Origin: Prochlorococcus sp. AG-363-O16
GTDB taxonomy: Bacteria > Cyanobacteriota > Cyanobacteriia > PCC-6307 > Cyanobiaceae
Assembly: GCA_003280095.1 (NCBI GenBank)
Contig: QCGA01000002.1
Span: forward strand, 1 to 64,000
Length of the DNA: 64,000 nucleotides
Direction: 5' to 3'
Shown piece by piece: positions 9,356 to 36,229 of this stretch. The position numbers were made by a program, and so were the translations under genes. A model generated the notes under the pieces. It searched no databases, was not told the DNA's origin, and was given only the letters and a program-made list of their open reading frames with translations. Position 1 is the first letter of the stretch. The number at the start of each line of letters is the position of its first letter.

Positions 9356-9607
9356 GAAGGATGGTCTATCGAATTGGCGCCTGTGAAATTTGCCCATTGA
9401 ACGTTTCAAAAAGAGGTACCCTAACCATGTTTTTAAACCTAACAACAAGAACGCCTTTATGGAACATAAAGTATCAGAATTTAATAGACTTAGAAGAAAA
9501 GAACTTAAAATGGTTAATGATCGGTAATCATACTCTTTAAAGAACACCTATTTGGTGATTCAAATTTCTGCTAACAATAGTTTCATCCTAAGAACAAATC
9601 AAAATCA

Positions 9608-9627
9608 CGAAACTCCTCACAAATTCG
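9608..9627. promoter_or_regulatory. Hairpin motif, divergent version in copy A
   Basis: CGAA (9608-9611) and TTCG (9624-9627) enclose ACTCCTCACAAA. It corresponds in position and loop sequence to the CTCCTCAC hairpins at 24093, 28421, 31400 and 16613, but with a different stem. It lies between the serine recombinase and the RNA candidate. Confidence 0.4.
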
Positions 9628-9661
9628 CGACATAAGAGCTACTGGATGATCGCGACTTTTA

Positions 9662-9793
9662 TGCGCTTGCCAAATAATGAATTATGAGTAAAAAATACCC
9701 AGCGTAAGGAGTCGAGCTCCTCCGAGCAGTGGAAAGAAAGAAACACTTGCTTTAGACCTCCAAGAGAACCTGTCTTTAGTCAGGTTCTCTTGG
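9662..9793 (+). ncRNA. Small RNA candidate, copy A of a four-copy family
   Basis: A conserved block starts GCGCTTGCCAAATAATGA and ends in a perfect intrinsic-terminator-like hairpin. Possible promoter: TTGCCA (-35) with TAAAAA (-10) 16 bp later, giving a transcript of ~100 nt. Inside, GGAGTCGAGCTCC forms a hairpin that persists, with changed bases, in the other copies (13931, 23929, 31236). The block has no conserved reading frame. Divergent from the serine recombinase. I do not recognise it as a known cyanobacterial RNA. Confidence 0.5.
9760..9793 (+). terminator. Perfect 13-bp terminator hairpin of RNA candidate A
   Basis: CCAAGAGAACCTG (9760-9772) pairs exactly with CAGGTTCTCTTGG (9781-9793), loop of eight. 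No strong U-tract follows in this copy. Confidence 0.6.
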
Positions 9794-13705: not shown

Positions 13706-13930
13706 GTAACCTCATTGAAGGTAATATTAATTTTGCGGAGATCTGTCGATGTTAGATAACTCTTGAAATCGCAAAACATGACTGATGTCTTAATTAATCT
13801 ACTGAAGTGTCGTTTTTTTGTCCTACTCCTCCATGGGAAGTTTTTGTTGACCTGGAGGCGTAGAAGAAAAGAACGGCTCTCCTCACAAAATTTTCGTCTT
13901 GGGAGCGACTCAATGAGGGTACCTTTTTCA

Positions 13931-14053
13931 TTCACTTGCCAAAAATCAATTATGAGTAAAAAAGCCTAGTGTCAGGAGTTGGATGCTCCGAGCAGTGAAA
14001 ATCAGGAACCCCGTTCTAGATCTCCAAGAAAACCTGCTTTTGAGCAGGTTTTT
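13931..14053 (+). ncRNA. Small RNA candidate, copy B (diverged)
   Basis: Begins CACTTGCCAAAAATCAATTATGAGTAAAAAA and keeps the order of blocks of copy A: promoter-like TTGCCA and TAAAAA, an inner hairpin GGAG-TTGGATG-CTCC, CGAGCAGTG, then a terminator AACCTGC (14031-14037) with GCAGGTT (14044-14050) and a T-run. It is clearly more diverged than C and D. Divergent from the radical SAM gene. An overlapping minus-strand frame at 13702-13935 is considered spurious. Confidence 0.45.
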
Positions 14054-14178
14054 TATGTCTACTCAAGAGTACTGCGCATGGAACTCAAGAGAATCATTGG
14101 TGATGGTCACCAATGATTACAACAAAAGCTAGCAGGATCTGCCTAACTTAAGAGAATCCTTTATTCAGTCTTTAGCAA

Positions 14179-14958
14179 GTGATGAATGAACTCCGTCTGA
14201 AAATCTATGAACAGATAATTAACAAGACTCCAGATGGTAGAACTTCTTGGTTCAATAAAATATGTGGTGTTACTATTTTTATTTCTATCTTTTTAGCAAT
14301 CATAGTTACTGAGAATTCAATAGACTATCGGTTTGGAGATCAAATTGACCTGTTAGATTGGATAATTGGTGGTTTGTTTTGTCTTGAATATATCTGTCGC
14401 TTATGGGTAGCACCTCTTGAAGATAAATATGGCAACGGATTAAAAGGGATTTTGCGTTACATGATTTCGCCAATGGCAATGATAGATATAATTGCCATTA
14501 TACCTTCATTTATTGGTGTTCGTGCTGAATTAAAGATTTTAAGAATAATCCGCCTTCTTCGAATATTAAAAATTGGAAGAAGTGAAAAGTTTAAACAAAG
14601 TATATTTCACTTCAACTATGCCCTTCGGGCAAAGAATCAAGAACTACAAATTTCTACCTTTTATACGATATTGCTCTTACTAATTAGTAGCACCTTTATG
14701 TATCTTGCTGAGTCATCTATCCAACCAGAGTTGTTAGGCTCAATTCCCAGATGTCTATGGTGGTCAATTACAACCGTATGTGCAGTTGGATATGGCGACT
14801 CAATTCCCATTACAGCACTTGGGAAAACAATTGCATCAGCAACATCTCTTATGGGTATTGGTGCAATAGCTATCCCTACAGGAATACTTGCTTCTGGTTT
14901 TAGTGAGTCACTTAGTGCTCAAGAAAAGATACTTAGAAAAGAAGCATTAGAAAAATAA
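14179..14958 (+). CDS. Voltage-gated-like potassium channel (6TM)
   Basis: 259 residues with six hydrophobic segments. S4 is visible as LKILRIIRLLRILKIGR (~115-131), with Arg/Lys every third position, and the pore has the selectivity filter TVCAVGYGD (~197-205). This is the KvAP/Kch-like architecture. It conducts K+ across the plasma membrane, gated by voltage; the N-terminus is short, so no regulatory domain is fused. Flanked by RNA candidate B upstream and a sulfotransferase gene downstream. Confidence 0.85.
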   Translation: MMNELRLKIYEQIINKTPDGRTSWFNKICGVTIFISIFLAIIVTENSIDYRFGDQIDLLDWIIGGLFCLEYICRLWVAPLEDKYGNGLKGILRYMISPMAMIDIIAIIPSFIGVRAELKILRIIRLLRILKIGRSEKFKQSIFHFNYALRAKNQELQISTFYTILLLLISSTFMYLAESSIQPELLGSIPRCLWWSITTVCAVGYGDSIPITALGKTIASATSLMGIGAIAIPTGILASGFSESLSAQEKILRKEALEK

Positions 14959-16271: not shown

Positions 16272-16526
16272 TCAGCGCTTGCTCTGAAAGGAGAGGGTGT
16301 CTGTCGAATTGAGCAACAATAGGACCTCTAAAATATATTTATCTAATTGTTCTTGCATCCATTTTTGGATATCTGTTTCCAACCAGACAACAAGATTAGA
16401 TCCTAATGCTATTTGCTTAGGGAATTTACCTACATTGATTCGGTCGTAGATAGTTGTTCTACTCTTTCAAATCCTATGAAGAACTTTCCATATGTGCAGG
16501 AAACGTTCTCTGATGTCAATTTTCAT
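16272..16526 (-). pseudogene. alpA-like regulator with in-frame stop
   Basis: Starts MKIDIRERFL, like the gene at 24205. Codon 20 is TGA (16469-16467); after it the frame is undamaged: SRTTIYDRINVGKFPKQ, then LGSNLVVWLETDIQKWM. The frame runs on through a tRNA-3'-end-like motif (16290-16308) and stops at 16272. The upstream leader is a diverged copy of the repeated alpA leader. One substitution or small event seems to have inactivated it. The AlpA family are small winged-HTH regulators of excision in satellites and prophages. Confidence 0.75.
16290..16308 (-). repeat. tRNA-Ser-3'-end-like motif, inverted copy
   Basis: On the minus strand it reads TTCGACAGACACCCTCTCC, a perfect match to 19 bases of the family consensus but without the final G. 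It is the only copy in this orientation and lies inside the alpA relic's reading frame. Confidence 0.5.
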
Positions 16527-16612: not shown

Positions 16613-16637
16613 CAACACTCCTCAAACAAGTTTGTCG
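16613..16637. promoter_or_regulatory. alpA leader hairpin, copy F
   Basis: Read on the minus strand, CGACA and TGTTG enclose a loop containing CTTGTTTGAGGAG; one pair is a G-T wobble. It is in the leader of the inactivated alpA. The attached RNA candidate is missing here. Confidence 0.4.
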
Positions 16638-16741
16638 GTATGCTCTCTACTAGATAAGAGAACATGTTTAATGCCTGTCCAACAATCCTTTCTGAAGGGA
16701 TCGATGCAATACCTAGAATATCCAGATAAAGACCACCCTTG

Positions 16742-17053: not shown

Positions 17054-18439
17054 CTGAATAAGCAAGCCGTTGTTATTGGTTTTGTATTATCCCTCATTTC
17101 ATTGTGTCAAATAGATTTTCCTGGGAATTCTCAGGAATTGAAGCCTGATTTATCTAGGTATGATTCATATCGAACCTCTTCTTTGGCAAGATTATCTTCT
17201 GTTGAGATAATCATACCCAAAAAAGGATTTGGATCAGGAGTAATAGTTAATAAAGAAGGTAATAGATATACAATTTTGACTGCTTGGCATCTTTTTGATG
17301 ACCTTGAACCAGGATCAGAATTCAAAATTCGCACTGCACATAATAAGACATACAAAATAAATCAAGAAAGTATTAGGCGAATTAATAACTTGGACATAGC
17401 TATATTCCCTTTAGAAAGTGTTAGCAATTACGAAACTGCAAAGTTTACTGATCTAATAGACTTGAAGAGAAACGATATATTATTCTCCTCAGGCTTTGCT
17501 TCTGGAATATTTCATTTTAAAAAAGGCAAAGTAATTGCAAATGCTGGGGTTTATATAAAAGAAGGCAATCAGTTGATTTATACAAATAGAGTTATTTCTG
17601 GCATGAGTGGTGGTGCACTCTTTGATCTTAATAGCAATCTAGTTGGAATTAATACCATGTCAAATCTAAAGTCTTTTGATGACAAACAACAGCCTTATTC
17701 TATTGGTGTACCTATTTCTTATTATATAAATTATATAAATAGTTACTCTAAATTCTTTTCGAAAAAACTAATAACACTGGACGACCATTTAGCAAAGGCG
17801 GCTGAAATAAATAATGAAAATGGTGATCCAAAACTGATAGTTAATGTTTTAGAGGAATCAGTGAATTTGATTGATTTTGATATGAATGATATCTCGACTT
17901 GGTTTGCATATAAAAATCTATGCAATGCAAAAAGTAAACTTGAAGATTATATTAGTGCAGAAAAGAACTGCGCAAAGGCAATTGCTATAGCTCCCAATGA
18001 TATCCTTTCTTATATCCATCTTGCCATTTCAAGGTCTAAAATGAATGACGATTATGCCGCAATTAGTGATTATAATAAAATCTTAAAAATCGATCCAGAA
18101 AATAGTTTTGTTTATACTTATCGAGCAATTTCCAAAAAAGGGATTGGTGACCATCAAGGTGCAATATCTGATTTCACTAAAGCAATAGAAATTTCGCCTA
18201 ATAAACCTAATTTATTTTTAATTCGTGGAATTAGTAAAGATTATTTAGGTGATCATTATGGAGCAATATCAGACTTTAATCACGCAATAAAAATTAGCCC
18301 TAAAGATGGGAACTATTATCGTAGTCGTGGAGTTACAAAGATGAAAATAGGAGACAGTAAAGGTGCTTGTTCTGATTGGAAAAAGGCTGCAGATTTGGGT
18401 AATAAAGATGCTACGAAATGGGTGAAAGAGGATTGCTAA
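17054..18439 (+). CDS. Secreted trypsin-like serine protease with TPR repeats
   Basis: The recognisable protein begins at TTG 17102, but the same frame upstream encodes NKQAVVIGFVLSLISLC, an obvious signal peptide, after CTG 17054; the true start is non-canonical and uncertain. The protease domain shows TAWH (His), NNLDIAIF (Asp) and SGMSGGALFD (Ser), an HtrA/Do-like triad without a PDZ domain. It is followed by about five TPR units and the C-terminal KGACSDWKKAADLG tail shared by the island's TPR proteins. Probably periplasmic. Partners unknown. Confidence 0.75.
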   Translation: MNKQAVVIGFVLSLISLCQIDFPGNSQELKPDLSRYDSYRTSSLARLSSVEIIIPKKGFGSGVIVNKEGNRYTILTAWHLFDDLEPGSEFKIRTAHNKTYKINQESIRRINNLDIAIFPLESVSNYETAKFTDLIDLKRNDILFSSGFASGIFHFKKGKVIANAGVYIKEGNQLIYTNRVISGMSGGALFDLNSNLVGINTMSNLKSFDDKQQPYSIGVPISYYINYINSYSKFFSKKLITLDDHLAKAAEINNENGDPKLIVNVLEESVNLIDFDMNDISTWFAYKNLCNAKSKLEDYISAEKNCAKAIAIAPNDILSYIHLAISRSKMNDDYAAISDYNKILKIDPENSFVYTYRAISKKGIGDHQGAISDFTKAIEISPNKPNLFLIRGISKDYLGDHYGAISDFNHAIKISPKDGNYYRSRGVTKMKIGDSKGACSDWKKAADLGNKDATKWVKEDC

Positions 18440-23811: not shown

Positions 23812-23928
23812 ATTATTTATATCTAGAGGACTAATTACACTACAATGCCAATCATATTGTGAGAAAGCAAGTCTGAACTGCAGGTTGAGTGGGACGTCTA
23901 CTGGAAAACTTGAAAGGATTGCAAGGCA

Positions 23929-24058
23929 CAAAAAAACCTGCTCAAAGGCAGGTTCTCTTGGAGATCTAGAGCGCGTGTTTCCTTGTTTCCACTGCTCGGA
24001 GGATCTCAACTCCTCACGCTGGGTATTTTTACGCATAACTCATTATTTGGCAAGCACA
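23929..24058 (-). ncRNA. Small RNA candidate, copy C
   Basis: Reads from GTGCTTGCCAAATAATGA (24058 leftwards) to the terminator AACCTGC/GCAGGTT (23935-23954) with a T-run of seven. The inner GAGGA/TCCTC hairpin and a possible outer GCGTG/CACGC stem enclose CGAGCAGTGG. The sequence is the same as copy D over the whole block, which indicates recent duplication or gene conversion. Confidence 0.5.
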
Positions 24059-24092
24059 TAAAAAAGGTGCCCTCATCGAGTAGCACCCATAT

Positions 24093-24117
24093 CGACAAAC
24101 TTGTGTGAGGAGTGTCG
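24093..24117 (+). promoter_or_regulatory. alpA leader hairpin, CGACA/TGTCG version
   Basis: CGACA (24093-24097) and TGTCG (24113-24117) close a loop containing CTTGTGTGAGGAG. The copy at 31400 has CGAGA/TCTCG: both strands changed together. An alternative pairing, GAGGAG...TAG with CTA-CTCCTC (~24126-24136), is mutually exclusive with it. Confidence 0.5.
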
Positions 24118-24204
24118 TAGTTCTGTTCTACTCCTCCATGGGAACTTTGGGAAGACCTGGACAAGCACGATGCAATGGGAGGTTCTTTTCTTCTTTGAGA
24201 ACCC

Positions 24205-24522
24205 ATGAAAATCGACATCAGAGAACGCTTTCTACGTATTCCAGAAATAGTTCATAGAACAGGAATGAGTAGAACAACTATCTACCACCGAATCAATGAA
24301 GGTAAATTCCCTAAACAAATTCCATTAGGTTCTAATCTTGTTGTCTGGTTGGAATCAGATATCCAGGTCTGCTGGTGGGGTATTACGAAAATACCACTCT
24401 CTGACAGTGATATTCGAGTATTAGAACCGAAGGAAAATCGGTTCAGAGTTTCTATTGAAGATGCGTTGCATATAAAGGTTTATCCAAAGGGAGGCAACTA
24501 TTTTGTATGGAGATACGCTTAA
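24205..24522 (+). CDS. AlpA-type regulator with replaced C-terminus
   Basis: 105 residues. Residues 1-53 are AlpA-like: MKIDIRERFLRIPEIV, a helix-turn-helix (TGMSRTTIYHRINEGKFP), then IPLGSNLVVWLESDIQ. In its relatives this ends EWMDNQI soon after; here it continues VCWWGITKIPLSD to RYA, about 50 unrelated residues. The junction at ~24370 looks like a fusion with the 3' part of another gene. AlpA regulates excision in satellites and prophages. The start at 24205 is forced, because the overlapping upstream ATG frame (24138) is out of phase here. Confidence 0.65.
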   Translation: MKIDIRERFLRIPEIVHRTGMSRTTIYHRINEGKFPKQIPLGSNLVVWLESDIQVCWWGITKIPLSDSDIRVLEPKENRFRVSIEDALHIKVYPKGGNYFVWRYA

Positions 24523-24555
24523 AAATTATAATATTCAAGATAAAGAAACTTTATA

Positions 24556-24936
24556 TTATAACGTTTGAATATTAGTTATTTTGCATTTTTTGAGATCAAT
24601 TTCATTGATTGTTTCCATAGTCATGCTACCCATTAACTCGCCCATATCAGTTGTAGTTTTCCTTGTATGAATTATCTTTGTTTCACCTTTACGTTCATAA
24701 ATTTCAGTTACCATACCTGTTTGTGACTTATATTGATACTCTTTGCCGATAGTAAAACTTTTGCCCTCATATACATATTGCCCTTTACTTGTTGATATCT
24801 TTACCGGAAACTTGATTCCCATTATTTCACCAGTTCCCTCACAAGAATAATTGTCAAAGTAATTGATCTTCTCCGAGGAACACCCAGAAGCACCTATTGA
24901 TATTGCCGCTAATGATAGATAAATAATCTTTTTCAT
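24556..24936 (-). CDS. Predicted lipoprotein, hypothetical
   Basis: 126 residues from MKKIIYLSL at 24936 (an earlier ATG at 24966 would add ten polar residues). The signal peptide ends with ISIGASGC, a good lipobox, so the mature protein begins at Cys. The remainder (YSCEGTGEIMGIKFPVKIST and a Thr-rich segment) looks like a beta-rich small periplasmic domain. No family recognised. Convergent with the alpA gene to the left. Confidence 0.6.
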   Translation of the reverse strand: MKKIIYLSLAAISIGASGCSSEKINYFDNYSCEGTGEIMGIKFPVKISTSKGQYVYEGKSFTIGKEYQYKSQTGMVTEIYERKGETKIIHTRKTTTDMGELMGSMTMETINEIDLKKCKITNIQTL

Positions 24937-25262
24937 TGATTTTTTAGTATTATCTACCATTAACACTAAAATATATATTAATTTTTTGGATAATTAGTTG
25001 CATCTCTTAAGGAGTTAAAGTAACGATCTAAATGCATTCTGCAGATGCCAAAGAAATTAACAGGTTGTACTTCTGTTCAGAATCATTGTGATTGTCATCG
25101 TTTATTACTGCTTCTTCTAAAAATGAATCTTTGAAGTATCATGTATTAAATTTAATATAAGGTTTTAAAGGGTCAGTTTTCAAGGAAGAAGGTAAAAATT
25201 CAATAAGCAATTAAATTATTGATTTCCAAGTATTATTTAATTATATTTACACAGGGAAAAAT
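24937..25262. other. Non-coding AT-rich interval
   Basis: About 325 bp between divergent genes at 24936 and 25263. No repeat, terminator or small gene recognised; it presumably holds two promoters. Confidence 0.4.
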
Positions 25263-25634
25263 ATGGCAAGATTCAAACTTGCAGAAGGCGAGACGTTGAT
25301 AATAAAACAAATGAATACTCCGATTTTGGGTTTTATGAATAATTTGAAATTAGTTGGTGCTGAACGTGGGACACTGTATTTAACTGATAAAAGAATTGCA
25401 TTCTGTTCAACTAGTCGACTTAAAACTTTAATAATATTTAATTTGTACGGTATATTACCGGAAATTGTTAGTTCGAAAAATATTCGTTTTGAAGCAGAAT
25501 TAAATCGTTTTGATATCCTAAATTTGAAATACTGGTGGGGCAATGGCGAATTCCTTGTTTTGGATGGTGAAAAGACCTTACTTATACCAAACAAAAGATT
25601 TAAAGAAGAATTCTTTAAATTGAAACAAGGATAA
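25263..25634 (+). CDS. GRAM/PH-like domain protein
   Basis: 123 residues, ATG start. After an N-terminal strand region comes GAERGTLYLTDKRIAFCST (~33-50), a pattern typical of bacterial GRAM or PH-like domains (G-x-L-x-L-T-x-x-R-I-x-F). A C-terminal stretch with WWGNGEFLVLDGEK may complete the barrel. Such domains bind phospholipids or form a membrane-associated scaffold. Substrate not visible. Confidence 0.55.
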   Translation: MARFKLAEGETLIIKQMNTPILGFMNNLKLVGAERGTLYLTDKRIAFCSTSRLKTLIIFNLYGILPEIVSSKNIRFEAELNRFDILNLKYWWGNGEFLVLDGEKTLLIPNKRFKEEFFKLKQG

Positions 25635-25809
25635 TCCAAGTTATAGTATATAGAATCTTAGGTCTTTAAAATATAATATTTGACTATAATCCCTGTGAAA
25701 TCCCAGATATAAAAAAGTAGTATCAGGAGTTCAATATCTTCTCGTTTAGGTGGCAAAGAAAATGCTAGAAAAAAAAACAAAAAATCAAACCAATTCGGAT
25801 TTTAATAAA

Positions 25810-26247
25810 TCACCAGCAATATTTCTTTAAATCTATTTCTGCATCTCGATGTCTTAGTTGGTATGCTTTTTCCCAATCAGAGCAGGCACCTTTTAGATCT
25901 TGAATTGCTTGCTTATATAGACCTCTGTTGTGATAGTGCAAAGCAACATTCCATGGTTCTTCTGCACGAAGTTCTATTGCCTTTGTACTATCTTGAATTG
26001 CTCCATAAGAGTCAAATAGATCATGTTTTTGTACTGCCCGATTATTGTAATTATGTGGATTAAGAGGATCAATTAATATCGCTTCATTGCAGTATTCAAG
26101 TGTTCTTTTTATATTCCTAAACATAAAAGCATTTCTGCATTTTCGTTCAAGTCTTTGGGACTCTATTCCTTGACAACCTGAAATCAAGATAAACAATAAA
26201 CTAAACTTTGCAAAATTGGTAAGTATTGGACATTTGATTCTAAACAT
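25810..26247 (-). CDS. TPR lipoprotein of the island family
   Basis: 145 residues. FAKFSLLFILISGC forms a signal peptide with lipobox; two to three TPRs follow (CNEAILIDPLNPHNYNNRAV, STKAIELRAEEP) and the end is DLKGACSDWEKAYQLRHRDA, the family tail. 20 bp separate it from the upstream gene at 26268-26519 on the same strand. Probably a periplasmic protein-interaction module. Confidence 0.65.
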   Translation of the reverse strand: MFRIKCPILTNFAKFSLLFILISGCQGIESQRLERKCRNAFMFRNIKRTLEYCNEAILIDPLNPHNYNNRAVQKHDLFDSYGAIQDSTKAIELRAEEPWNVALHYHNRGLYKQAIQDLKGACSDWEKAYQLRHRDAEIDLKKYCW

Positions 26248-26267
26248 AATTTTTAAGAGGTGTTGAT

Positions 26268-26519
26268 TTAGAAGTTACTAAAAATAAAACTAGAAACTAT
26301 AAGGCATATTGTTGCGATCCAACTAGATGCTTTTTGTTCAACACTAAAGGCAATGATAGGACCATAATAAAATCCTCCTATACCTCCAAGTATACCGCCA
26401 ACAATACATTCAGAAAACTCTTCACTGATCCCCAGGACTTTTGCGATAGGTGGAGCAAATACAGCATCGGCAACTGCCCATATCCCACTGAAAATTAAAA
26501 AGAAAAGAATTGACTCCAT
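26268..26519 (-). CDS. Small membrane protein
   Basis: 83 residues with hydrophobic helices at each end (ILFFLIFSGIWAVADAVFA and WIATICLIVSSFIF) and a Gly-rich middle (GGILGGIGGFYYGP) that could be a third span. No family recognised. In one orientation with the TPR lipoprotein. Confidence 0.55.
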   Translation of the reverse strand: MESILFFLIFSGIWAVADAVFAPPIAKVLGISEEFSECIVGGILGGIGGFYYGPIIAFSVEQKASSWIATICLIVSSFIFSNF

Positions 26520-26598
26520 TCTTTGTTAAAAGACACTAACTATCCCAAGATAGACGAAATGCCCTAACTCATCAGAAAGCAGTCTAATTTTTGCCGAA

Positions 26599-26618
26599 CT
26601 CGACAGACACCCTCTCCG
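26599..26618 (+). repeat. tRNA-Ser-3'-end-like motif with right flank
   Basis: CTCGACAGACACCCTCTCCG, one base from consensus, then TTTTTG. The right flank carries AAGTACCATGACGTGCC and AAGTACGAGAACGTCC 20 nt apart (26626-26663), as at 32646-32682. Continuing to ~26735 it matches 18570-18650. Confidence 0.55.
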
Positions 26619-26742
26619 TTTTTGTAAGTACCATGACGTGCCAGGAAGTACGAGAACGTCCCACTCTTACTGCAATTTGGTGAATTTACGAGATTTATAC
26701 TCTTAGATAGTTCCAGAAAGGATACGTAGGTCCCATTTTGGT

Positions 26743-26803
26743 ATTAGGGAAAATGTTAGGGAATTTCTCTCAGGTGTTAGGGAAAGAAAAAGGGTGTTAG
26801 GGA
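26743..26803 (+). repeat. Fourfold GTTAGGGA direct repeat
   Basis: (A/G)TTAGGGA at 26743, 26755, 26776 and 26796: spacings 12, 21 and 20, that is near multiples of a helical turn. This fits arm-type binding sites of a tyrosine integrase, though another DNA-binding protein is possible. Confidence 0.5.
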
Positions 26804-26867
26804 ACTATTTTTAGATTATATTTTTTGCCGTTTTTATGAGATCGATCATTGACAATTCTGTCTTGTT

Positions 26868-28313
26868 TTAATCTGGCATAATTCGACACCAAGCACCTTG
26901 CTCTCCTTGTAACCACTTAATTCGAAATTCACTTCCTAATGCTGCTGATTTTTTAAAGTCACTACAGGCACCTTGGTTATCATTTAATCCTGCTCCTTTA
27001 CTATAACCACGCAGACTATATGCTTCGGGAAAATTTGGATTAATTTCTATTGCTTTAGTTAGATCAGAAATTGCTCCTTCAAAATCCTTTATTTCAATTT
27101 TTGCATAAGCACGTTCGTAATAGACTTGGAAAGAATCTTTTTTAAGTTCAAGCGATTTTGAGTGGTCCGAGATTTCTCCAGAATAATCACCCAAAGCCCC
27201 CTTCGATCTTGCTCGTAAGTAGTATGCATAGTAATCATCAGGTGTGATATCTATTGCTTTGTCGTAGTCAGATATTGCACCTTTATGCTCTTTTAGTTCT
27301 GCTTTTCTTGCGCCACGATTTCTATACATAAGAGGATCACCAGGGTCTATTTCGATTCCTTTTGTATAGTCTTCTATTGCACCCTTGATATCACCTGAAT
27401 TACCTTTTGCTATCGCCCTACTATTATAGGCACGTTTGTTGTTAGGATTTAATTCTATTGCTCTAGTTAAATCATCTATTGCCTGCTTGTAATTACCAGA
27501 CCTTTCATTCTTTACACCCTTCGCCCAGTAAGAATTCGAAAGTATTATATTGTTTGAGTATTTTACTTTTAAAGAAGATATATTACCTCCACAATGCTCT
27601 TCTCTCAATTTAATAGCAAGGGAATCTCTAGAAATTTCTGGTTTATTTAAGTCTTTGCACGCCCCTTTGATGTCACCAAGCGTGACTTTAATGAACCCTT
27701 TAATTCTATAAATAGCATAATCACTCTTATCTAGTTTAAGTACTTGGTTGAAATCTTTAAGTGCTGATTTATAATCTTCTAAGAGCATCTTTGTGAAACC
27801 CCTCTTGCGATAATACTTTGCCTTTTTTGAGTTTATTGATATTGCCTTGTCAAAGTCTGAAACAGCATCTCTTCTGACTATAGATACTCGATCTTGGTCA
27901 TTTGTGGCGATCTTGTTGGAGGTATCAATACTTTCTAATTTTGCTTCTCCTCGGAAATAATAAGAATCATCATCGTTAGGATTGATTCTTATTCCACTTG
28001 TGAAATCTAATATTGCCCCTTCAAAATCTTTTAACTCTCGCTTGATCAATCCTCTTAAGGTATATGCAACATCACTTTTTGGATTTATTTTTATTGCTTG
28101 ATCTAAGTCTAATATTGCTTCTTCTAGTTTATTCCTATCATACTTATTAATAGCATTTTGTATATATTTTTTCTCAGTATCTGCCAGTGCTTTTTCAGGA
28201 ATAGAAAGCAAGACCGCAGTAGTTGTCAAAGCAGCACCAGTTCCTATCAGCAATGGTTGCCCTATAGGCATTAAGGAGAGAGCAGCAGCAATAGCAGTAT
28301 TTCTGAGTTTCAT
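26868..28313 (-). CDS. Large secreted TPR protein
   Basis: 481 residues. The signal peptide MKLRNTAIAAALSLMPIGQP...EKALAD is almost the same as in 32735 and 33726. About ten TPRs follow in two blocks (e.g. YNSRAIAKGNSGDIKGAIED), with an inserted low-similarity stretch at ~150-250. It ends DNQGACSDFKKSAALGSEF, the family tail. A probable internal duplication made the protein twice the usual size. Exported, presumably periplasmic scaffold. Confidence 0.75.
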   Translation of the reverse strand: MKLRNTAIAAALSLMPIGQPLLIGTGAALTTTAVLLSIPEKALADTEKKYIQNAINKYDRNKLEEAILDLDQAIKINPKSDVAYTLRGLIKRELKDFEGAILDFTSGIRINPNDDDSYYFRGEAKLESIDTSNKIATNDQDRVSIVRRDAVSDFDKAISINSKKAKYYRKRGFTKMLLEDYKSALKDFNQVLKLDKSDYAIYRIKGFIKVTLGDIKGACKDLNKPEISRDSLAIKLREEHCGGNISSLKVKYSNNIILSNSYWAKGVKNERSGNYKQAIDDLTRAIELNPNNKRAYNSRAIAKGNSGDIKGAIEDYTKGIEIDPGDPLMYRNRGARKAELKEHKGAISDYDKAIDITPDDYYAYYLRARSKGALGDYSGEISDHSKSLELKKDSFQVYYERAYAKIEIKDFEGAISDLTKAIEINPNFPEAYSLRGYSKGAGLNDNQGACSDFKKSAALGSEFRIKWLQGEQGAWCRIMPD

Positions 28314-28420
28314 TCAGACCGTCGGACCACCTAGAAAGTCTATTTGAGATAGTTGATCTCATCAGAAAGCAGTGGTGAACTGGCATGAAAAAGGGCACCC
28401 TCATCGAGCAGTGCCCATAA

Positions 28421-28445
28421 CGACAAACTTGTGTGAGGAGTGTCG
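28421..28445 (+). promoter_or_regulatory. alpA leader hairpin without alpA, copy E
   Basis: CGACA (28421-28425) and TGTCG (28441-28445) enclose CTTGTGTGAGGAG, as at 24093. The surrounding ~110 bp (28381-28490) match the leader, but neither the RNA candidate nor the alpA gene follows. Confidence 0.5.
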
Positions 28446-28517
28446 TAGTTCTGGTCTACTCCTTTATGGGAACTTTGGGAAGACTTGAAATGAAGTCTCA
28501 GCAGGTCCTATTTTGGT

Positions 28518-28610
28518 GTTAGGGAAAATGTTAGGGAAAAGACCGAAAAACAACCCGAAGTTGGTTCCAGGAAGGACCATGTAGTCCCTACTTAACGGAG
28601 ACCCTCTCTG
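28518..28610 (+). repeat. Arm-repeat pair and tRNA-Ser-like core
   Basis: GTTAGGGA at 28518 and 28530 (period 12), then the degenerate core CTTAACGGAGACCCTCTCTG at 28591-28610. The right flank has GGCGTC, GGCGTCC and CGGTCC spaced ~10-11 nt (28631-28658), shared with 31891-31930. Confidence 0.45.
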
Positions 28611-28766
28611 TTCCTCACTTTATGTCCGTAGGCGTCTCAGGGCGTCCATAGCGGTCCAAAATTTCGTCTGAATTTCACTTTTATCTGCAAGTTGAGGTTT
28701 GTGGATTGCTGGAAGCAAAGAATTGCAATTTGACCTTGACGATTAATTTTCTCATTCTCAGCAAAA

Positions 28767-30890
28767 TTATTTGTTCGTTTTACAAACCCAGAATTGATAC
28801 ATTCCACTGAAGGTTTTGGAATGCATTTCTTCAAACTTTGCCCAGTTTTGTAAGTTTATTTGCTTGTTATCTTCTGGGAAATATTTCTTATACATAGATT
28901 TAACTGATTGTTTGACTAAGAATCCAAGAAACTTTAACTCATTAGATTTGAAAGTTTCTTGTAGTTCTTGAATTGTGAATCGATATTCTTTGGCGTGAAA
29001 GCAAAGATCACGGCATTCTGACATCGTATAAAAATCATCCCAATCACTAAGATTACTTATTTGCTCATTCTTGTTAGAAAGAACATCTTCTCTAAAAACT
29101 TTGATGCCTTCATCATTCGGTTGGAGATTATTATTGGTTATATACTCTCTTGCTTTAACAATATCTTGTCTTGCTAGTTCGCTATATAAACCCAATTTAA
29201 GAAAACCGTTATTTTTTAAAACACTTACTAATGCTTTCAAACCTTTTGAGGGGTCATCCATATGGTGTAAAACACCCGAACATATAATGAGATCAAACTT
29301 TTTCTCTAGTAAACTAATTTCCAGGATATCCATCTGAATTAGTTCAACATTATCAATTCCAAGTTCATTTACCTTCCTTTGAGCATAAGCAAGACTAGAT
29401 AAACTCAAATCAATAGCAGTTATATGAGCATTTTTATAGATCTGTGTATGTAAAATTTGTTGACCTGTTCCACACCCAGCAACTAGAACTTGTAATTGAC
29501 TATCTCCAATATTGGAACTGATAGAATTAGGTTTGATTTCATTATTAATTCCTTGCAAAACAGATATCTTTTGACTTTCTGAATGATTTCCATATCTCCA
29601 TCTAGGATATGGATTTTCTTCATATTGAGATTTTACTTTTTTAGAAACATTATCATTAATTGACCCTAATCTTTTGATGGTTTGTGATAATTCAATTTCT
29701 TTTAGAGGTTCTATTATTTGTAATTCTATTAATTCTTTGAAACTTTGATTAGAAGAATTAAAAGATTTTAATAAGGGTATTCGATTAAGGAGTTTATATA
29801 GTGGAAAATAACAAGATAAAATTGATAAATGTATTTCACTGACTTCACCCTCTCTACATTTCTTGATAATGTTATCAACGGATATATTTTCTTCTTCAGT
29901 AACTGAATAAACATATTCATTTACGAAGCATTGCTCTCCTAATGCAATAATAAATTTCAATGCAGAATAATTAATATTCTCTGTATTTTTAGCGATAAGA
30001 TCGCATATGCTTCTTCTTGTTTTAGTTAGCAATTCCTCCAATTTATCATCGCAAAAGATAATCTTTTTAAGAGCATTAATTATGACTTTATCATTAATAA
30101 GCAATTCTATTCTAGAAAAATCTGAATCTAATTTTTCTAGATCATTGATTAATTCATTGCTCCATACAAAATTAAATGCTCTGTGTAATTCTTTATGAGG
30201 AACATCATTTCTCTTTAGAAGAAGATTTAATATTTTTTTTAAGTTTGATTTATTTAATTGAGATGGATCGGAATCTTGTAAAAATCTAGTTATAGAAGGA
30301 TAAATATTAGAAAATGATGGATTAATTTGAATTACTTTTAGATATGAATCAAACGCGTCTTGTAACTTGCAAAGATCACTCAAAATATTTCCCAGATTGT
30401 TATGCGCCATTGCGTAAACAGGATTGATTTTAATTGCTTTGCGATATGACAATTCAGCGTCTTGTAAGTTGCCAAGATCACTCAAGATATTTCCCAGATT
30501 GGAATGAGCATTAGCGAAATTAGGATTCAGTTCAATTGCTTTGCGAGTAGATAATTCTGCTTCTTTTAGTTTTCCAAGATCTCTCAATATATTTCCTAGA
30601 TTGGAATGAGCATCAGCGAAATTAGGATTCAGTTCAATTGCTTTGTGGTAGGATTTTTCTGCTTCTTTTAATTTGCCAATATTTTTCAGTATTATTCCAT
30701 AATTAGAAAAAACTCTGTGATCCTTGAATCCTTGACCTATAAAATGTTGATAATATTTTGCTGCTTCTGAAATATTTCCCTGAGAATGAAACTTGAATGC
30801 TTGTGAGATCAACTGTTCTGAAGTTCCATTAATCCTTTTATTGAAACTTGATTTTTTTTGTTTGTGTTGCGATTTTCCAAAACCTTTCAT
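28767..30890 (-). CDS. TPR protein fused to a class I SAM methyltransferase
   Basis: 707 residues. The N-terminal ~200 contain four or five near-identical TPRs (AIELNPNFADAHSNLGNILR). A helical linker (~210-420) precedes QYEENPYPRWRYG and the methyltransferase domain with motif I VLVAGCGTGQQ, then IDLSLSSLAYAQRK and DLIICSGVLHHMDDP. Protein, lipid or glycan methylation are all possible; the ENPYPRW region recurs in TPR-methyltransferases of polysaccharide islands. No signal peptide, so cytoplasmic. Confidence 0.8.
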   Translation of the reverse strand: MKGFGKSQHKQKKSSFNKRINGTSEQLISQAFKFHSQGNISEAAKYYQHFIGQGFKDHRVFSNYGIILKNIGKLKEAEKSYHKAIELNPNFADAHSNLGNILRDLGKLKEAELSTRKAIELNPNFANAHSNLGNILSDLGNLQDAELSYRKAIKINPVYAMAHNNLGNILSDLCKLQDAFDSYLKVIQINPSFSNIYPSITRFLQDSDPSQLNKSNLKKILNLLLKRNDVPHKELHRAFNFVWSNELINDLEKLDSDFSRIELLINDKVIINALKKIIFCDDKLEELLTKTRRSICDLIAKNTENINYSALKFIIALGEQCFVNEYVYSVTEEENISVDNIIKKCREGEVSEIHLSILSCYFPLYKLLNRIPLLKSFNSSNQSFKELIELQIIEPLKEIELSQTIKRLGSINDNVSKKVKSQYEENPYPRWRYGNHSESQKISVLQGINNEIKPNSISSNIGDSQLQVLVAGCGTGQQILHTQIYKNAHITAIDLSLSSLAYAQRKVNELGIDNVELIQMDILEISLLEKKFDLIICSGVLHHMDDPSKGLKALVSVLKNNGFLKLGLYSELARQDIVKAREYITNNNLQPNDEGIKVFREDVLSNKNEQISNLSDWDDFYTMSECRDLCFHAKEYRFTIQELQETFKSNELKFLGFLVKQSVKSMYKKYFPEDNKQINLQNWAKFEEMHSKTFSGMYQFWVCKTNK

Positions 30891-30956
30891 GCTTTTCCCC
30901 TTTTGGGGTCCATTGTGATTAAGTGAACACTCAATGCAATTGTTGGAAGAAGGAAA

Positions 30957-31220
30957 TTGACACTACACAGGTCTCCTCTTTGTCAAACTATCTTGAAAAG
31001 TCGACCCCTTCAGGAAGCATTAAGTTTTAGGAATGGACAAGAGAAGAAATTGATATTCCAATCAGATGGCGGCAAATCCTTTAACCACGAACAAGCAATA
31101 GACCTCCTGGTCTCCTTGGTTGCCACTGATGCGAACTCAGAAAAGAAGTGGAGAGGTTTCTATAACTCCTTATCAAGTGCTGAACTGCAGGTTGAGTGGG
31201 ACGTCTACTGGAAAACTTGA
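30957..31220 (+). CDS. Hypothetical 87-residue protein of the repeated module
   Basis: A TTG-started frame after GGAAGAAGGAAA. LIFQSDGGKSFNHEQAIDLL and AELQVEWDVYWKT give protein-like composition. The last 13 codons recur unchanged before copy C (23873-23913), so the gene's 3' end is part of the duplicated module. It converges on the RNA candidate, sharing its terminator. Function unknown. Confidence 0.45.
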   Translation: MTLHRSPLCQTILKSRPLQEALSFRNGQEKKLIFQSDGGKSFNHEQAIDLLVSLVATDANSEKKWRGFYNSLSSAELQVEWDVYWKT

Positions 31221-31235
31221 AAGGATTGCAAGGCA

Positions 31236-31365
31236 CAAAAAAACCTGCTCAAAGGCAGGTTCTCTTGGAGATCTAGAGCGCGTGTTTCCTTGTTTCCACT
31301 GCTCGGAGGATCTCAACTCCTCACGCTGGGTATTTTTACGCATAACTCATTATTTGGCAAGCACA
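31236..31365 (-). ncRNA. Small RNA candidate, copy D
   Basis: Same sequence as copy C over the block, with terminator AACCTGC (31242-31248) and GCAGGTT (31255-31261) plus a run of seven T. The possible promoter TTGCCA/TAAAAAT is conserved. Divergent from the intact alpA gene. Confidence 0.5.
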
Positions 31366-31399
31366 TAAAAAAGGTGCCCTCATCGAGTAGCACCCATAT

Positions 31400-31424
31400 C
31401 GAGAATCTTGTGTGAGGAGTCTCG
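31400..31424 (+). promoter_or_regulatory. alpA leader hairpin, CGAGA/TCTCG version
   Basis: CGAGA (31400-31404) pairs with TCTCG (31420-31424). Compared with copy C, a C-to-G change on one side is matched by G-to-C on the other, so pairing is kept. The loop CTTGTGTGAGGAG is unchanged. Confidence 0.6.
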
Positions 31425-31510
31425 TAGTTCTGTTCTACTCCTCCATGGGAACCTTGGGAAGACCTGGACAAGCACGATGCAATGGGAGGTTCTTTTTTCT
31501 TTTAGAACCC

Positions 31511-31714
31511 ATGACCAAGGCAACCGACATCAGAGAACGTTTTCTTCGTATGCCAGAAATAGTCCAAACGACTGGATTGTGTAAGGCGACGATCTACAAC
31601 AAGATTAATGATGGTTCATTCCCTAAGCAGATCCCGATTGGGTCCAACATCGTGGTCTGGTTGGAGTCCGAAATCAAAGAATGGATGGATAATCAAATCA
31701 AAATGTCTAGATAG
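31511..31714 (+). CDS. AlpA-type transcriptional regulator (intact)
   Basis: 67 residues from ATG 31511: MTKATDIRERFLRMPEIV, a helix-turn-helix TTGLCKATIYNKINDGSFP, then IPIGSNIVVWLESEIKEWM. This is the classic length and ending of AlpA proteins, which activate excision in P4-like satellites and cryptic prophages. A frame from ATG 31445 is in phase and would add 22 residues; because it is out of phase in copy C, the short form is preferred. A hairpin GGTTCT/AGAACC lies directly before the start. Possible targets are the repeats downstream. Confidence 0.75.
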   Translation: MTKATDIRERFLRMPEIVQTTGLCKATIYNKINDGSFPKQIPIGSNIVVWLESEIKEWMDNQIKMSR

Positions 31715-31728
31715 GTCATTTACAGATT

Positions 31729-31756
31729 GCACCCTACTTGCTAGCATTTAGGGTGC
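31729..31756 (+). terminator. Hairpin after alpA
   Basis: GCACCCTA (31729-31736) pairs with TAGGGTGC (31749-31756), 15 bp after the alpA stop. Only a short TT follows. Confidence 0.5.
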
Positions 31757-31787
31757 TTAACTATAGAGAAAAAACCCTGAAAAACGT

Positions 31788-31806
31788 GCTAGGGTAAGTG
31801 CTAGGG
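31788..31806 (+). repeat. GCTAGGG direct-repeat pair, 12-nt period
   Basis: GCTAGGG at 31788 and 31800. Same geometry as the GTTAGGGA pairs at 26743 and 28518 but a different word. It lies 65 bp before a tRNA-like core. Confidence 0.45.
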
Positions 31807-31871
31807 TATTTTTATAAACGATCTCTCAATCTTGCTCAAAGCGATCTAATAGAGTCCAAAAGTAGGTCGAA

Positions 31872-31930
31872 GTCGAAGGACACCCTCTCCGTTTAAAGCG
31901 GACCATCGGAGTCCATAGCGGTCCAGAATT
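31872..31930 (+). repeat. tRNA-Ser-3'-end-like motif with right flank
   Basis: Core GTCGAAGGACACCCTCTCCG (31872-31891), which preserves a TTCGAAG-like T-loop except for its first base. Right flank GCGGACC, GGAGTCC and CGGTCC at ~10-11 nt spacing, shared with 28611-28660. It is downstream of the intact alpA. Confidence 0.55.
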
Positions 31931-32734: not shown

Positions 32735-33412
32735 ATGAAACTTCGTAGCACTGCTATTGCTGCTGTTCTCTCCTTAATACCTATAGGACAACCGCTGATG
32801 GTTGGAACTAGTGCTGCTTTGACGAGTGCTGCGGTATTACTTTCTGTCCCTGAGAAAGTACAGGCAGAAAGTGCTGCGTTCTACTACAAGCGTGGCATTA
32901 AAAAACACCGCGCAGGAGATTATTCCGGAGCAATATCTGATTACACCAAAGCAGTTGAGATCAATCCAAGGTATGCAAATGCGTATGTCAACCGTGGCGT
33001 TGCAAAGAGAAAATTAGGAGATAATTACGGAGCAATCTCTGATTACAACAAAGCAATTGAGATCAAACCAAGGGATGCAGATGTGTATTTCAACCGTGGA
33101 AATGCAAAGGGCAAGATAGGAGATTATTCCGGAGCAATATCTGATTACAATAAAGCGATAGAAATCAATCCAAATTTTGCAGACGCGTATTACAATCGTG
33201 GATGGGAAAAGTATGAATTGAAGGATTATTACGGAGCGATCTCTGATTACAACAAAGCAATTGATATTAACTCTAAATATATAAGCGCTTATAAAAATCG
33301 TGGGATCGCAAAGGAAAACATAGGCGATATGAAAGGTGCTTGTTCTGATTGGAGAAAAGCATCTTCTCTGGGAGATCAAGATGCTGCCAAGTGGGTAAGA
33401 AATCAATGCTAA
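32735..33412 (+). CDS. Secreted TPR protein
   Basis: 225 residues: signal peptide MKLRSTAIAAVLSLIPIGQP...EKVQAES, five TPRs of the form YxNRGxAKxxLGDYxGAISDYxKAIEI, and the tail DMKGACSDWRKASSLGDQDA ending WVRNQC. The nearly exact TPR copies suggest recent internal amplification. Paralogues at 26868 and 33726. Predicted exported; likely a protein-binding scaffold. Confidence 0.75.
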   Translation: MKLRSTAIAAVLSLIPIGQPLMVGTSAALTSAAVLLSVPEKVQAESAAFYYKRGIKKHRAGDYSGAISDYTKAVEINPRYANAYVNRGVAKRKLGDNYGAISDYNKAIEIKPRDADVYFNRGNAKGKIGDYSGAISDYNKAIEINPNFADAYYNRGWEKYELKDYYGAISDYNKAIDINSKYISAYKNRGIAKENIGDMKGACSDWRKASSLGDQDAAKWVRNQC

Positions 33413-33425
33413 TGATCTGAAAATA

Positions 33426-33635
33426 ACTTCGCCGTCACTTCACCACGATATAATGAAGGTGCAAACCCAAGTCACTTAATGCTTTTTTAACTCAGGAACT
33501 ATTGAGTGGGAATAAGTAATATATAAAGAACTCAATCACTCCCTCAAAATATCACTTCACCGTGAGTTCAACGTGAAAATTAGGTGACGTAATTGCAAGG
33601 GTTGGGAGAGATTACTTCACCGCGACTTCACCGTG
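33426..33635 (+). repeat. ACTTCACCG pairs, 11-nt period
   Basis: Three tandem pairs with exactly 11 nt between units: 33426/33437, 33554/33565 and 33614/33625. The first pair begins an ~89-bp block (33426-33514) repeated at 34318-34407 after the next TPR gene. Confidence 0.6.
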
Positions 33636-33725
33636 GCACGTTGTCACCGTCTCTTAGGAGAAATCGTAGAAAGAAGATTTTCTCTACGCTTGTATTAAAT
33701 TAGTAGAAGTCGGAAGAGCACCCAT

Positions 33726-34304
33726 ATGAAGAAACGAATTGCTGTTATTGGTGCTGCTTTGTCTTTGATGCCATTAGGGCAATCTCTGGTTGTGGTAACT
33801 GGTGCTGCTTTAACGAGTGCTGCGGTGATACTTTCTGTTCCTGAAAAAGCACATGCAGAGAGTGCTGATTTTTACTACAATCGTGGAATTGATGCTCAAT
33901 CATCGGAGGATCATTATGGAGCAATATCTGATTTCAATAAGGCAATTGATATTAATTCAAACTTCGTAAATGCTTATTATGCTCGTGGATGGAGTAAAAA
34001 TCATTTAAAAGATTATAAAGGGGCGTTATCTGATTTAAATAAGGTGATAAAGATTGATCAGAAATACAAACAGGCATATATTGAACTTTCATTTTCTAAG
34101 ATTCAATTAGAAGATTATTACGGTGCAATTTCAGATCTCAATAAAGTAATAAAAATGAATCCTAATAATTTAAATATTGTTTTTCGAAATCGTGGAATTG
34201 CAAAAGAAGGAATAGGAGACATGAAAGGTGCTTGTTCTGATTGGAGAAAAGCAAGTTCTTATGATGATGAATTCGCTCCTGATTGGGTAAAAGAAGAATG
34301 CTAA
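33726..34304 (+). CDS. Secreted TPR protein
   Basis: 192 residues with signal peptide MKKRIAVIGAALSLMPLGQS...EKAHAES, four TPRs (e.g. DFNKAIDINSNFVNAYYARG) and the tail DMKGACSDWRKASSYDDEFA ending WVKEEC. More diverged than the neighbour at 32735, with the same architecture and a repeated 3' flank, so the gene and its downstream block were duplicated together. Confidence 0.75.
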   Translation: MKKRIAVIGAALSLMPLGQSLVVVTGAALTSAAVILSVPEKAHAESADFYYNRGIDAQSSEDHYGAISDFNKAIDINSNFVNAYYARGWSKNHLKDYKGALSDLNKVIKIDQKYKQAYIELSFSKIQLEDYYGAISDLNKVIKMNPNNLNIVFRNRGIAKEGIGDMKGACSDWRKASSYDDEFAPDWVKEEC

Positions 34305-34317
34305 TTCTCTGAAAAGA

Positions 34318-34407
34318 ACTTCACCGTTACTTCACAGCGATATAATGCAAGTGCAAACCCAAGTCACTCACTGCACTTCCAAATTAGGAACTATTGAGTG
34401 GGAATAA
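34318..34407 (+). repeat. Second copy of the post-TPR repeat
   Basis: ACTTCACCGTT and ACTTCACAGCG (11-nt period), then GATATAATG and GTGCAAACCCAAGTCACT, ending GGAACTATTGAGTGGGAATAA. Matches 33426-33514. Confidence 0.65.
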
Positions 34408-34738
34408 CAGATAATTACTGACTTAATTATCCGCTTAAAATCATAGATTTTCGATATTTATATGTTCCATTTTATGCGTGAGCACCAATTTGATTTCTTT
34501 GACAATATTCCAATCTGAACCATTAATGAGTCACCTGTTAGAGAAATAGAAGGCCTTTTGATTACCAATAGTCATTTCCCTTGGCAGTTGTTAATTTCTG
34601 TTAGAAGAAAATTTAAAAGGAATAGTTGCTCTAAACTTGATACATAAACATTCAGTAGTAGATCGTTATGCATTTTTACTCATAAGGTCTATTGTTTAGT
34701 ATCCTGGTTTTTTGAATCATTAGTCTATTTGTGTTGTT
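34408..34738. other. Island boundary gap
   Basis: About 330 bp with no gene, repeat or terminator recognised. To its right, gene density and conservation rise. Confidence 0.4.
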
Positions 34739-36229
34739 ATGCTTCATTGTTATCGACTGAAAAGGATCCTTTTAAAAAGTTTAGGATTTATTTTTTTATT
34801 TAGTGCAATTTCTTTGTCAGAGCCTTTAGGAGCTAATTCGAATAAAAATATCGCAAATCAATTCGTAGAATCAGGTATTGAGAGAGGTCGTTTGGGTGAT
34901 CATCAAGGAGCAATTACTAGATTTTCTAAGGCTTTAGAAGTTGATCCAATGTTAGCTAATGCTTATTACAAAAGAGGCTTGGCAAAGGCAAATCTTTTAG
35001 ATTATCGTGGAGCAATTGCTGATTTTAGTCAGACTTTATATTTAAAACCTAAGTATATACAAGCTTATGTTAGTCGAGCAAATGCAAAGGTCGATTTAGG
35101 TAATTTACAAGGAGCTATTAAAGATTATACTAATGCAATAGGGATAGAATCTCAAAATCCGAAATTATATATTTCACGTGCAAATCTTTTTAGCCAATTA
35201 AATGATCATATTGGAGCTATTAATGATTTAACTAAAGCGATAGAAATGGATTCTAATAATCCAGAAATACTTTACAAAAGGGCAATATCAAATAAAGAAC
35301 TCGGAAATTATAGAGATTCAATTAAGGATTTGGAGAAATCAATAAAAATTTCTCCTGATCAAGCAATTTTGTATTATGAAAAATCTCTTTTGCTATCAAA
35401 ATTAGACGATTTCGTTGGGGCAATTGATGATTTATCCTTAGCAATAGATATAGATACTAAAAACCCTGATTTTTATTTAAATAGAGGATTGCTAAAGTCA
35501 CAAGTTTTAGATTATAAAGGAGCACTTGATGATTTTAATTCAACCTTAGAACTTGAAAAACAAAATCATTATGGCTATTATAATAGAGGTCTGATTAGAG
35601 CCTTTAACAGAAATTATAAATCAGCAATTCGAGACTTTAGTCAAGCTATTAAATTCAATTCAGAGAATCCATTAGCATATTCAAATCGTGGACTTGCTAA
35701 ACTTAAAATTAAACAATATAAAAGTTCAATTATAGATTTAAATAGTGCAATTACCATTCAACCGAATAATTCAAAATTTTATTTAATTAGAGCATATGCT
35801 CGCAGTAAGCAAGGTGATTTTAGAGGTGTTCTATTCGATGTAGATTTAGCACTAAAATTAGATAGCCGCAGTCTTTATGGATATCAGCTAAGAGCTTTTG
35901 CCAATAGTATTTTGGGTAATTTTAGACAGGCAATTTTGGATACAGATAAAGCTCTTGAATTAGATTCTAAAAATTCATTTACTTATCAAATAAGAGGATA
36001 TGTAAAAGCTAAATTGGGTGATTTTCAAGGAGCGATTTCTGATTCAGATTTATCAATTGCATATAATCCAAAAAATTCATATGCTTATGAGTTTCGCGCA
36101 TATTCAAAAGGTCGATTAGGAGATAAGCAAGGAGCATGTAGTGATTATAAAAAATCTTCTTTTTATGGAGGCGACATCAAAAAATGGCTAGAAAGTGAAA
36201 GTGGAGAGTGGTGCAAAAAAATGCTTTGA
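34739..36229 (+). CDS. Large TPR protein with signal peptide
   Basis: 496 residues. N-terminal basic-hydrophobic segment (RLKRILLKSLGFIFLFSAIS) then about 12 TPRs with the pattern GDxxGAIxDFxxALxLxP, ending DKQGACSDYKKSSFYGGDIK. Repeat units are more varied than in the 32735 protein, pointing to an older gene. Secreted or membrane-anchored scaffold (inference); partners unknown. Confidence 0.75.
   Translation: MLHCYRLKRILLKSLGFIFLFSAISLSEPLGANSNKNIANQFVESGIERGRLGDHQGAITRFSKALEVDPMLANAYYKRGLAKANLLDYRGAIADFSQTLYLKPKYIQAYVSRANAKVDLGNLQGAIKDYTNAIGIESQNPKLYISRANLFSQLNDHIGAINDLTKAIEMDSNNPEILYKRAISNKELGNYRDSIKDLEKSIKISPDQAILYYEKSLLLSKLDDFVGAIDDLSLAIDIDTKNPDFYLNRGLLKSQVLDYKGALDDFNSTLELEKQNHYGYYNRGLIRAFNRNYKSAIRDFSQAIKFNSENPLAYSNRGLAKLKIKQYKSSIIDLNSAITIQPNNSKFYLIRAYARSKQGDFRGVLFDVDLALKLDSRSLYGYQLRAFANSILGNFRQAILDTDKALELDSKNSFTYQIRGYVKAKLGDFQGAISDSDLSIAYNPKNSYAYEFRAYSKGRLGDKQGACSDYKKSSFYGGDIKKWLESESGEWCKKML

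Follow-up and report, generated by a model that had tools for sequence, protein, structure and literature searches.

We found that a hairpin recurring in a 64,000-nucleotide stretch of Prochlorococcus DNA (hereafter the window) is very probably the stem-loop at the 5′ end of a minus-strand sRNA of the Yfr10 type, which stands in tandem with yfr2 and forms part of small integrative cassettes at tRNA-Ser. The preliminary description of this DNA had placed the hairpin in the leader of alpA, as one state of a two-state switch. Its sequence features identify it as a gene for a Yfr10-like regulatory sRNA on the other strand rather than a switch in the alpA message. This genome has six to seven related yfr10 copies, of which five are clear ones within the window (Table 1), and the gene appears to have been copied several times here because its position at one end of small mobile tRNA-Ser cassettes is fixed.

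Covariation in the stem and terminator

A compensatory change between two stems in almost identical DNA had been described, and we recovered both. Copy C (24093-24117) carries CGACA...TGTCG and copy D (31400-31424) carries CGAGA...TCTCG, within a 300-nt repeat (23873-24172 / 31180-31479) that contains four differences. Comparison of the repeats revealed that two of these form the compensating pair (24096 C/G with 24114 G/C), and the others lie at 24099 (A/T, in the loop) and 24146 (T/C). Three of the four differences fall inside the 25-nt stem-loop and two of those compensate mutually, for which a simple simulation with four substitutions placed at random gave P ~2e-4 for a compensated stem pair. 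The reported conservation of the loop was also borne out, with CTCCTCACA invariant in 26 aligned sequences. Copy F, which we took to be the 16.6-kb copy, keeps pairing by a wobble on the plus strand as described, but on the sRNA strand this is an A-C mismatch; the copy is decaying (37 bits; fold z −0.16) and adjoins an alpA pseudogene. The CGAA/TTCG stem assigned to copy A is present at 9608-9662, on the strand carrying ACTCCTCACA, in what we took to be the copy meant, which is very degenerate (21 bits).

Over many homologues, covariation was significant in both the stem and the terminator. In the 26-sequence alignment, which was unfitted, standard pairs made up 98.1% of pair cells, and two-sided changed cells numbered 20 vs. 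6.1 in shuffles and 0-1 in slid controls. Among 62 distinct sequences, model-aligned in a way that leans to structure, two-sided changed cells numbered 45 vs. 9.8 in shuffles and 3-9 in slid controls, and 9 of the 14 pairs changed on both sides. The terminator covaried through GGGTGC/GCACC, GGGCGC/GCGCC, and GGGCAC/GTGCC. The earlier proposal that the paired form is selected, either as RNA or as a protein-binding palindrome, is supported in its first version, selection on RNA, and not in its second.

Anatomy and strand of the sRNA gene

Read on the minus strand from 24117 to 24060, the element runs CGACA CUCCUCACACAAGUU UGUCG AUAU GGGUGC UACUCGAUGAGG GCACC UUUUUU, a hairpin followed by the GC-rich stem and U-run of a rho-independent terminator. 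The gene is 57-59 nt long, and its minus-strand fold was stronger than those of shuffles (z −2.6 for copy C and z −3.1 for copy D). The hairpin loop contains the Yfr1 undecanucleotide ACUCCUCACAC, with exact matches in the 24.1-, 28.4-, and 31.4-kb copies as well as on contig C37. Counts of G-U against A-C, a possible indicator of the strand, gave no clear preference by themselves, at 5 vs. 2 for the best copies and 22 vs. 21 overall. The motif in the loop, the terminator with its U-run, the −10 TAGAAC, and the tandem Yfr2 all lie on the strand opposite to alpA, and the assignment of the hairpin to the alpA leader is therefore not supported.

In a two-state switch in the plus-strand 5′ leader of alpA, the hairpin and a GAGGAG/CTCCTC pairing would exclude each other and control alpA. 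This second pairing can form and is even favoured by the isolated plus-strand fold, and alpA lies downstream of the hairpin on the plus strand in several copies of this genome; nevertheless, alpA is absent beside the hairpin in most relatives carrying it. The distal CTCCTC is GAGGAG on the sRNA strand, where it forms part of the promoter spacer that separates the −35 from the −10 region and immediately precedes TAGAAC (−10). A stretch of at least 6 nt complementary to the loop occurred in 8 of 13 alpA/att-type copies and in 2 of 25 copies with a TTGAC promoter, despite a loop that hardly changes. A riboswitch is expected to keep both alternative pairings in relatives, and here the second arm is not maintained. 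The strand, the terminator polarity, which agrees with the minus strand, and the unconserved second arm led us to reject an alpA-leader switch, which we consider extremely improbable; of the earlier claim, the ability to form the second pairing stands and the switch is unsupported.

A DNA palindrome bound by a protein such as AlpA or an excisionase, with the RNA irrelevant, is equally hard to reconcile with a terminator that is conserved with covariation of its own and with an asymmetric loop that is invariant. Proteins of the AlpA type bind DNA close to attachment sites, and att-like repeats lie near the hairpin, but the hairpin occurs in many genomes without alpA or att, and the separate TTCCCAAAG-TTCCCATGG direct repeat is the better operator candidate. 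We give this explanation next to no weight and read the hairpin as part of the minus-strand sRNA.

Identity as Yfr10 in tandem with Yfr2

Yfr1, an sRNA of cyanobacteria, has ACUCCUCACAC as its ultraconserved motif (PMC2190773), and the position of this motif in a loop atop a stem is the trait of Yfr10 as against Yfr1 (PMC6778093). In the window copies, folds and covariation place the motif in such a loop. Canonical Yfr1 is present separately on contig 15 (C15, 5927; RF01116, 64 bits), flanked by ORFs that read as IMP dehydrogenase (guaB) and thioredoxin (trxA), and RF01116 had no match at E≤1 in window positions 12000-33500, island copies included. The island copies share the identical 11-nt motif and a similar length with Yfr1, whose motif is unpaired between two stem-loops and whose gene lies between guaB and trxA, whereas here the motif occupies a hairpin loop. 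Membership of the island copies in Yfr1 is ruled out by the RF01116 non-match and by this structure.

Directly downstream of yfr10 on the sRNA strand, Rfam family Cyano-1 (RF01701) matched in two copies with 47.3 bits vs. a gathering threshold of 41. We equated Cyano-1 with Yfr2 because its GAAACAAGGAAA loop and GUGUGAGGAG 5′ end fit the primers and description in PMC2662882. Yfr2 is the neighbour of the hairpin under study, not the hairpin itself; it is the tandem partner at this locus and has a complementary motif. In the joint-transcript fold, the Yfr10 loop pairs intramolecularly with GUGAGGAGU of the Yfr2 at 23957..24023. The window holds two intact and two decayed yfr10-yfr2 pairs, and the tandem recurs in many relatives, though not at all copies.

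In MED4, Yfr10 lies upstream of Yfr2 in a genomic island and the two share a 270-nt precursor (PMC2518516). Expression of short Yfr10 RNAs has been published for MED4, WH8102, and SS120, and pairing with Yfr2 and mRNAs was demonstrated for MED4 (PMC6778093). The genes described here resemble the Yfr10 family, which includes Yfr12, Yfr18, and Yfr104 (PMC2518516, PMC6778093), in the ACUCCUCACAC loop atop a stem, the terminator, the same-strand place upstream of Yfr2, and the location in genomic islands. They differ in that up to seven related copies occur in one partial genome and in that one promoter class is tied to alpA and tRNA-Ser attachment repeats.

Promoter classes and distribution

The yfr10 copies have two main promoter classes. 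Many relatives carry a TTGAC-N17/18-TAGAAC promoter, with the stem starting 7 nt after the −10, and the window's intact copies belong to class P2, laid out as TTCCCAAAG-TTCCCATGG...GAGGAGTAGAAC. At 24118..24160, the elements are the TTCCCAAAG-TTCCCATGG direct repeat, GAGGAG, and the −10 TAGAAC. No clear −35 box is seen in P2-class copies, and the yfr10 promoter received no score in a simple promoter scan. Transcription would start at the base of the stem, immediately after TAGAAC, and stop at the GGGTGC...GCACC-U6 terminator. In many genomes, yfr10-yfr2 is followed by one and the same ion-channel gene (MNELRLRIYEQIINKTP...), both in the window (13874-14958) and in L098, L104, L106, L109, L128, and L131, and this holds for both promoter classes.

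A covariance model of the 57-nt gene detected yfr10 in 53 of 300 family genomes. The exact pattern occurred at 37 loci in named genomes, all Prochlorococcus and nearly all single-cell genomes. The viral contigs and phages searched gave no match, and a viral or phage origin was rejected on this basis. Two genomes (L077 and L085) carry a single Yfr10-like gene, GGACACUCC...UGUCC, with a −10 of TATAGA or TATAGT and no tandem yfr2. To our knowledge, SS120 and MIT9211 have been reported without Yfr1.

Cassettes at the tRNA-Ser 3′ end

On the divergent side of P2 copies, paired TGCTAGGGAA repeats are followed by CACCCTCTCCG, the tRNA-Ser 3′ end. Eleven copies have this tRNA repeat at 151-154 nt from the sRNA start, and 3 further copies, in which alpA is interposed, have it at 444-454 nt. 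All 24 TTGAC-class copies lack it within 1.2 kb, and its background is 0.03 per kb and strand. The cassette end block was found in 14 of the 20 genomes searched, (nearly) full-length in 10, and yfr10 adjoins it in all 10. Being copies of a single block, the end blocks demonstrate its spread as a unit rather than the independence of each copy; likewise, the fixed spacing stems from the shared ancestry of that block, and individual copies do not count as separate evidence. Intact tRNA-Ser genes of relatives have the same 3′ end, and their 3′ flank recurs at window positions 26620 and 32641, which provides, by way of these relatives, the border repeats and intact tRNA of a tRNA-targeted element. 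In the genome itself, which is 64% complete, we found a tRNA fragment at a contig edge and no intact tRNA-Ser.

Two neighbouring cassettes of the window are 2.0 kb (26605-28611; TPR gene and yfr10) and 3.3 kb long (28597-31892; TPR-methyltransferase gene, yfr2, yfr10, and alpA). The far border of the first, at 26605..26677, consists of the tRNA-Ser 3′-end repeat and the conserved sequence seen after the intact tRNA-Ser genes of relatives, with arm-like repeats again about 120 nt inside it (26744); the start codon of its TPR-protein gene lies 75 nt downstream of yfr10 on the same strand. Paired TTAGGG/GCTAGGG direct repeats, candidate integrase arm sites, occur near both cassette ends (26744-26761, 28518-28538, and 31788-31808). 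Further att-like repeats lie at 18516, 19815, 20683, 21119, 32626, and 16288 (minus), and together with the adjacent cassettes they suggest an array of inserted modules. Island cargo with TPR repeats was observed at 17102-18439, 26868-28313, 28767-30890, and 32735-36229, including one protein with a trypsin-like domain and one with a methyltransferase domain.

A search of the 64% complete genome for a tyrosine recombinase gave a weak match and nothing convincing, and the recombinase loci checked had neither an att repeat nor paired arm repeats around them; a recombinase adjoining the cassettes was not found. A small serine resolvase gene (8762-9547, minus strand) lies beside the degenerate yfr10 copy at 9608..9662, which is followed by a degenerate yfr2 at about 9729. 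An apparently similar resolvase gene comes right after alpA and arm repeats in L114 (after about 3180, plus strand). These resolvase genes are possibly linked to cassette movement.

Tycheposons are tRNA-targeted integrative elements of Prochlorococcus. The cassettes resemble them in the tRNA 3′-end repeats that bound island segments and in their tandem arrays, but differ in that only small cassettes, and no recombinase, were found here; we regard them as candidate members. A limited literature search yielded no earlier report of the yfr10-alpA-att link and nothing relevant on alpA with Yfr10 or on tycheposons with sRNAs. The kind of sRNA is known, and its mobile-element setting is apparently undescribed.

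Table 1 Features of the yfr10 loci and cassettes in the window
Feature	Position	Strand	Evidence or remark
yfr10-type sRNA, copy C	24060..24117	−	R1 model 89 bits; fold z −2.6; covariation
Parts of yfr10 copy C	24060..24117	−	5′ hairpin with ACUCCUCACAC loop, then rho-independent terminator
yfr10-type sRNA, copy D, stem CGAGA/UCUCG	31367..31424	−	85.8 bits; fold z −3.1
yfr10-type sRNA without following yfr2	28388..28445	−	87.6 bits
Decayed yfr10 copy, stem and terminator broken	16613..16669	+	37 bits; z −0.16
Decayed yfr10 copy, then degenerate yfr2	13874..13928	+	55.7 bits; z 0.24
Very degenerate yfr10 copy, CGAA/TTCG stem	9608..9662	+	21 bits, E 0.03
yfr2 (Cyano-1), tandem with copy C	23957..24023	−	RF01701 47.3 bits, gathering 41
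yfr2 (Cyano-1), tandem with copy D	31264..31330	−	RF01701 47.3 bits
yfr10 promoter region, P2 class	24118..24160	−	Comparison of about 70 copies; putative start site
alpA, divergent from yfr10, C-terminus recombined	24205..24522	+	Pfam Phage_AlpA 7.5e-17
alpA, divergent from yfr10	31511..31714	+	Pfam Phage_AlpA 7.5e-21
alpA pseudogene beside decayed yfr10	16356..16505	−	PF05930 match, internal TGA; stops
Paired direct repeats GCTAGGGTAAGTGCTAGGGTA, candidate integrase arm sites	31788..31808	+	
tRNA-Ser 3′-end repeat GGACACCCTCTCCGT, att-like	31878..31892	+	454 nt from yfr10 copy D
Paired direct repeats GTTAGGGAAAATGTTAGGGAA, candidate arm sites	28518..28538	+	70 nt from yfr10 start
tRNA-Ser 3′-end repeat, 2 mismatches	28597..28611	+	152 nt from yfr10 start
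Other cassette end	26605..26677	+	92% identity to tRNA-Ser 3′ flank
Cargo gene, TPR protein, of 2-kb cassette 26605-28611	26868..28313	−	Pfam TPR

Discussion

We propose that cassettes inserted at the tRNA-Ser 3′ end would consist of the tRNA-Ser 3′-end repeat, the TGCTAGGGAA repeats, an optional divergent alpA, and yfr10, followed by an optional yfr2 and then by cargo genes on the sRNA strand. The sRNA would be transcribed away from the cassette end, and its stem would display ACUCCUCACAC in the loop for base pairing with Yfr2 and mRNAs. Where yfr2 stands in tandem, its 5′ GUGAGGAG is predicted to be able to pair with the yfr10 loop. Presentation of the motif for pairing would explain why the loop does not vary and the stem keeps its pairing through compensatory change. 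AlpA may act as a directionality factor, with the TTCCCAAAG-TTCCCATGG direct repeat as its putative operator.

The sRNA(s) of about 18 of 22 P2 copies are followed by an ORF on the same strand, starting 62-107 nt downstream where yfr2 is lacking and about 250-900 nt downstream where it is present, and opposite-strand ORFs are rare; the promoter may therefore serve the cargo by read-through. This arrangement would also be expected if the sRNA segment were mainly a 5′ leader or attenuator through which cargo genes are expressed, with any role in trans secondary. Read-through of Yfr2b/c into downstream mRNAs in Synechocystis (PMC2662882) and the joint Yfr10-Yfr2 precursor in MED4 (PMC2518516) point in the same direction. 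However, the loop motif is frozen, as trans pairing would predict, and some yfr10 copies have no cargo gene close by; we judge a mainly leader-like function unlikely.

Even with its Yfr10 identity granted, the sRNA could have been captured by chance near an attachment site and travel as a passenger without benefit to the cassettes. Several copies in one genome have changed in sequence and yet kept their perfect pairing, their loop, and their terminator, which speaks against a mere passenger, but two window copies have clearly decayed, and cassette ends similar to these appear to exist without yfr10, as partial end-block matches. We regard chance capture as rather unlikely, though less so than the leader.

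Our own proposal, that small tRNA-Ser cassettes carry the antagonistic, host-type sRNA pair Yfr10-Yfr2 as a fixed attachment-end module with a divergent AlpA-type gene and that their spread rewires the host RNA network, is put forward tentatively, as a real possibility. If true, cassette spread would multiply a core regulatory sRNA and place it under other promoters, and the same promoter may drive a cargo gene, so that mobile DNA would rewire the RNA network of its host. The tie of Yfr10 to cassette ends would account for the numerous, poorly syntenic Yfr10-like RNAs in Prochlorococcus islands and for strain-to-strain differences in their copy number. These loci would offer a case, open to testing, in which a mobile element bears a copy of a central regulatory RNA pair of its host beside its own attachment site.
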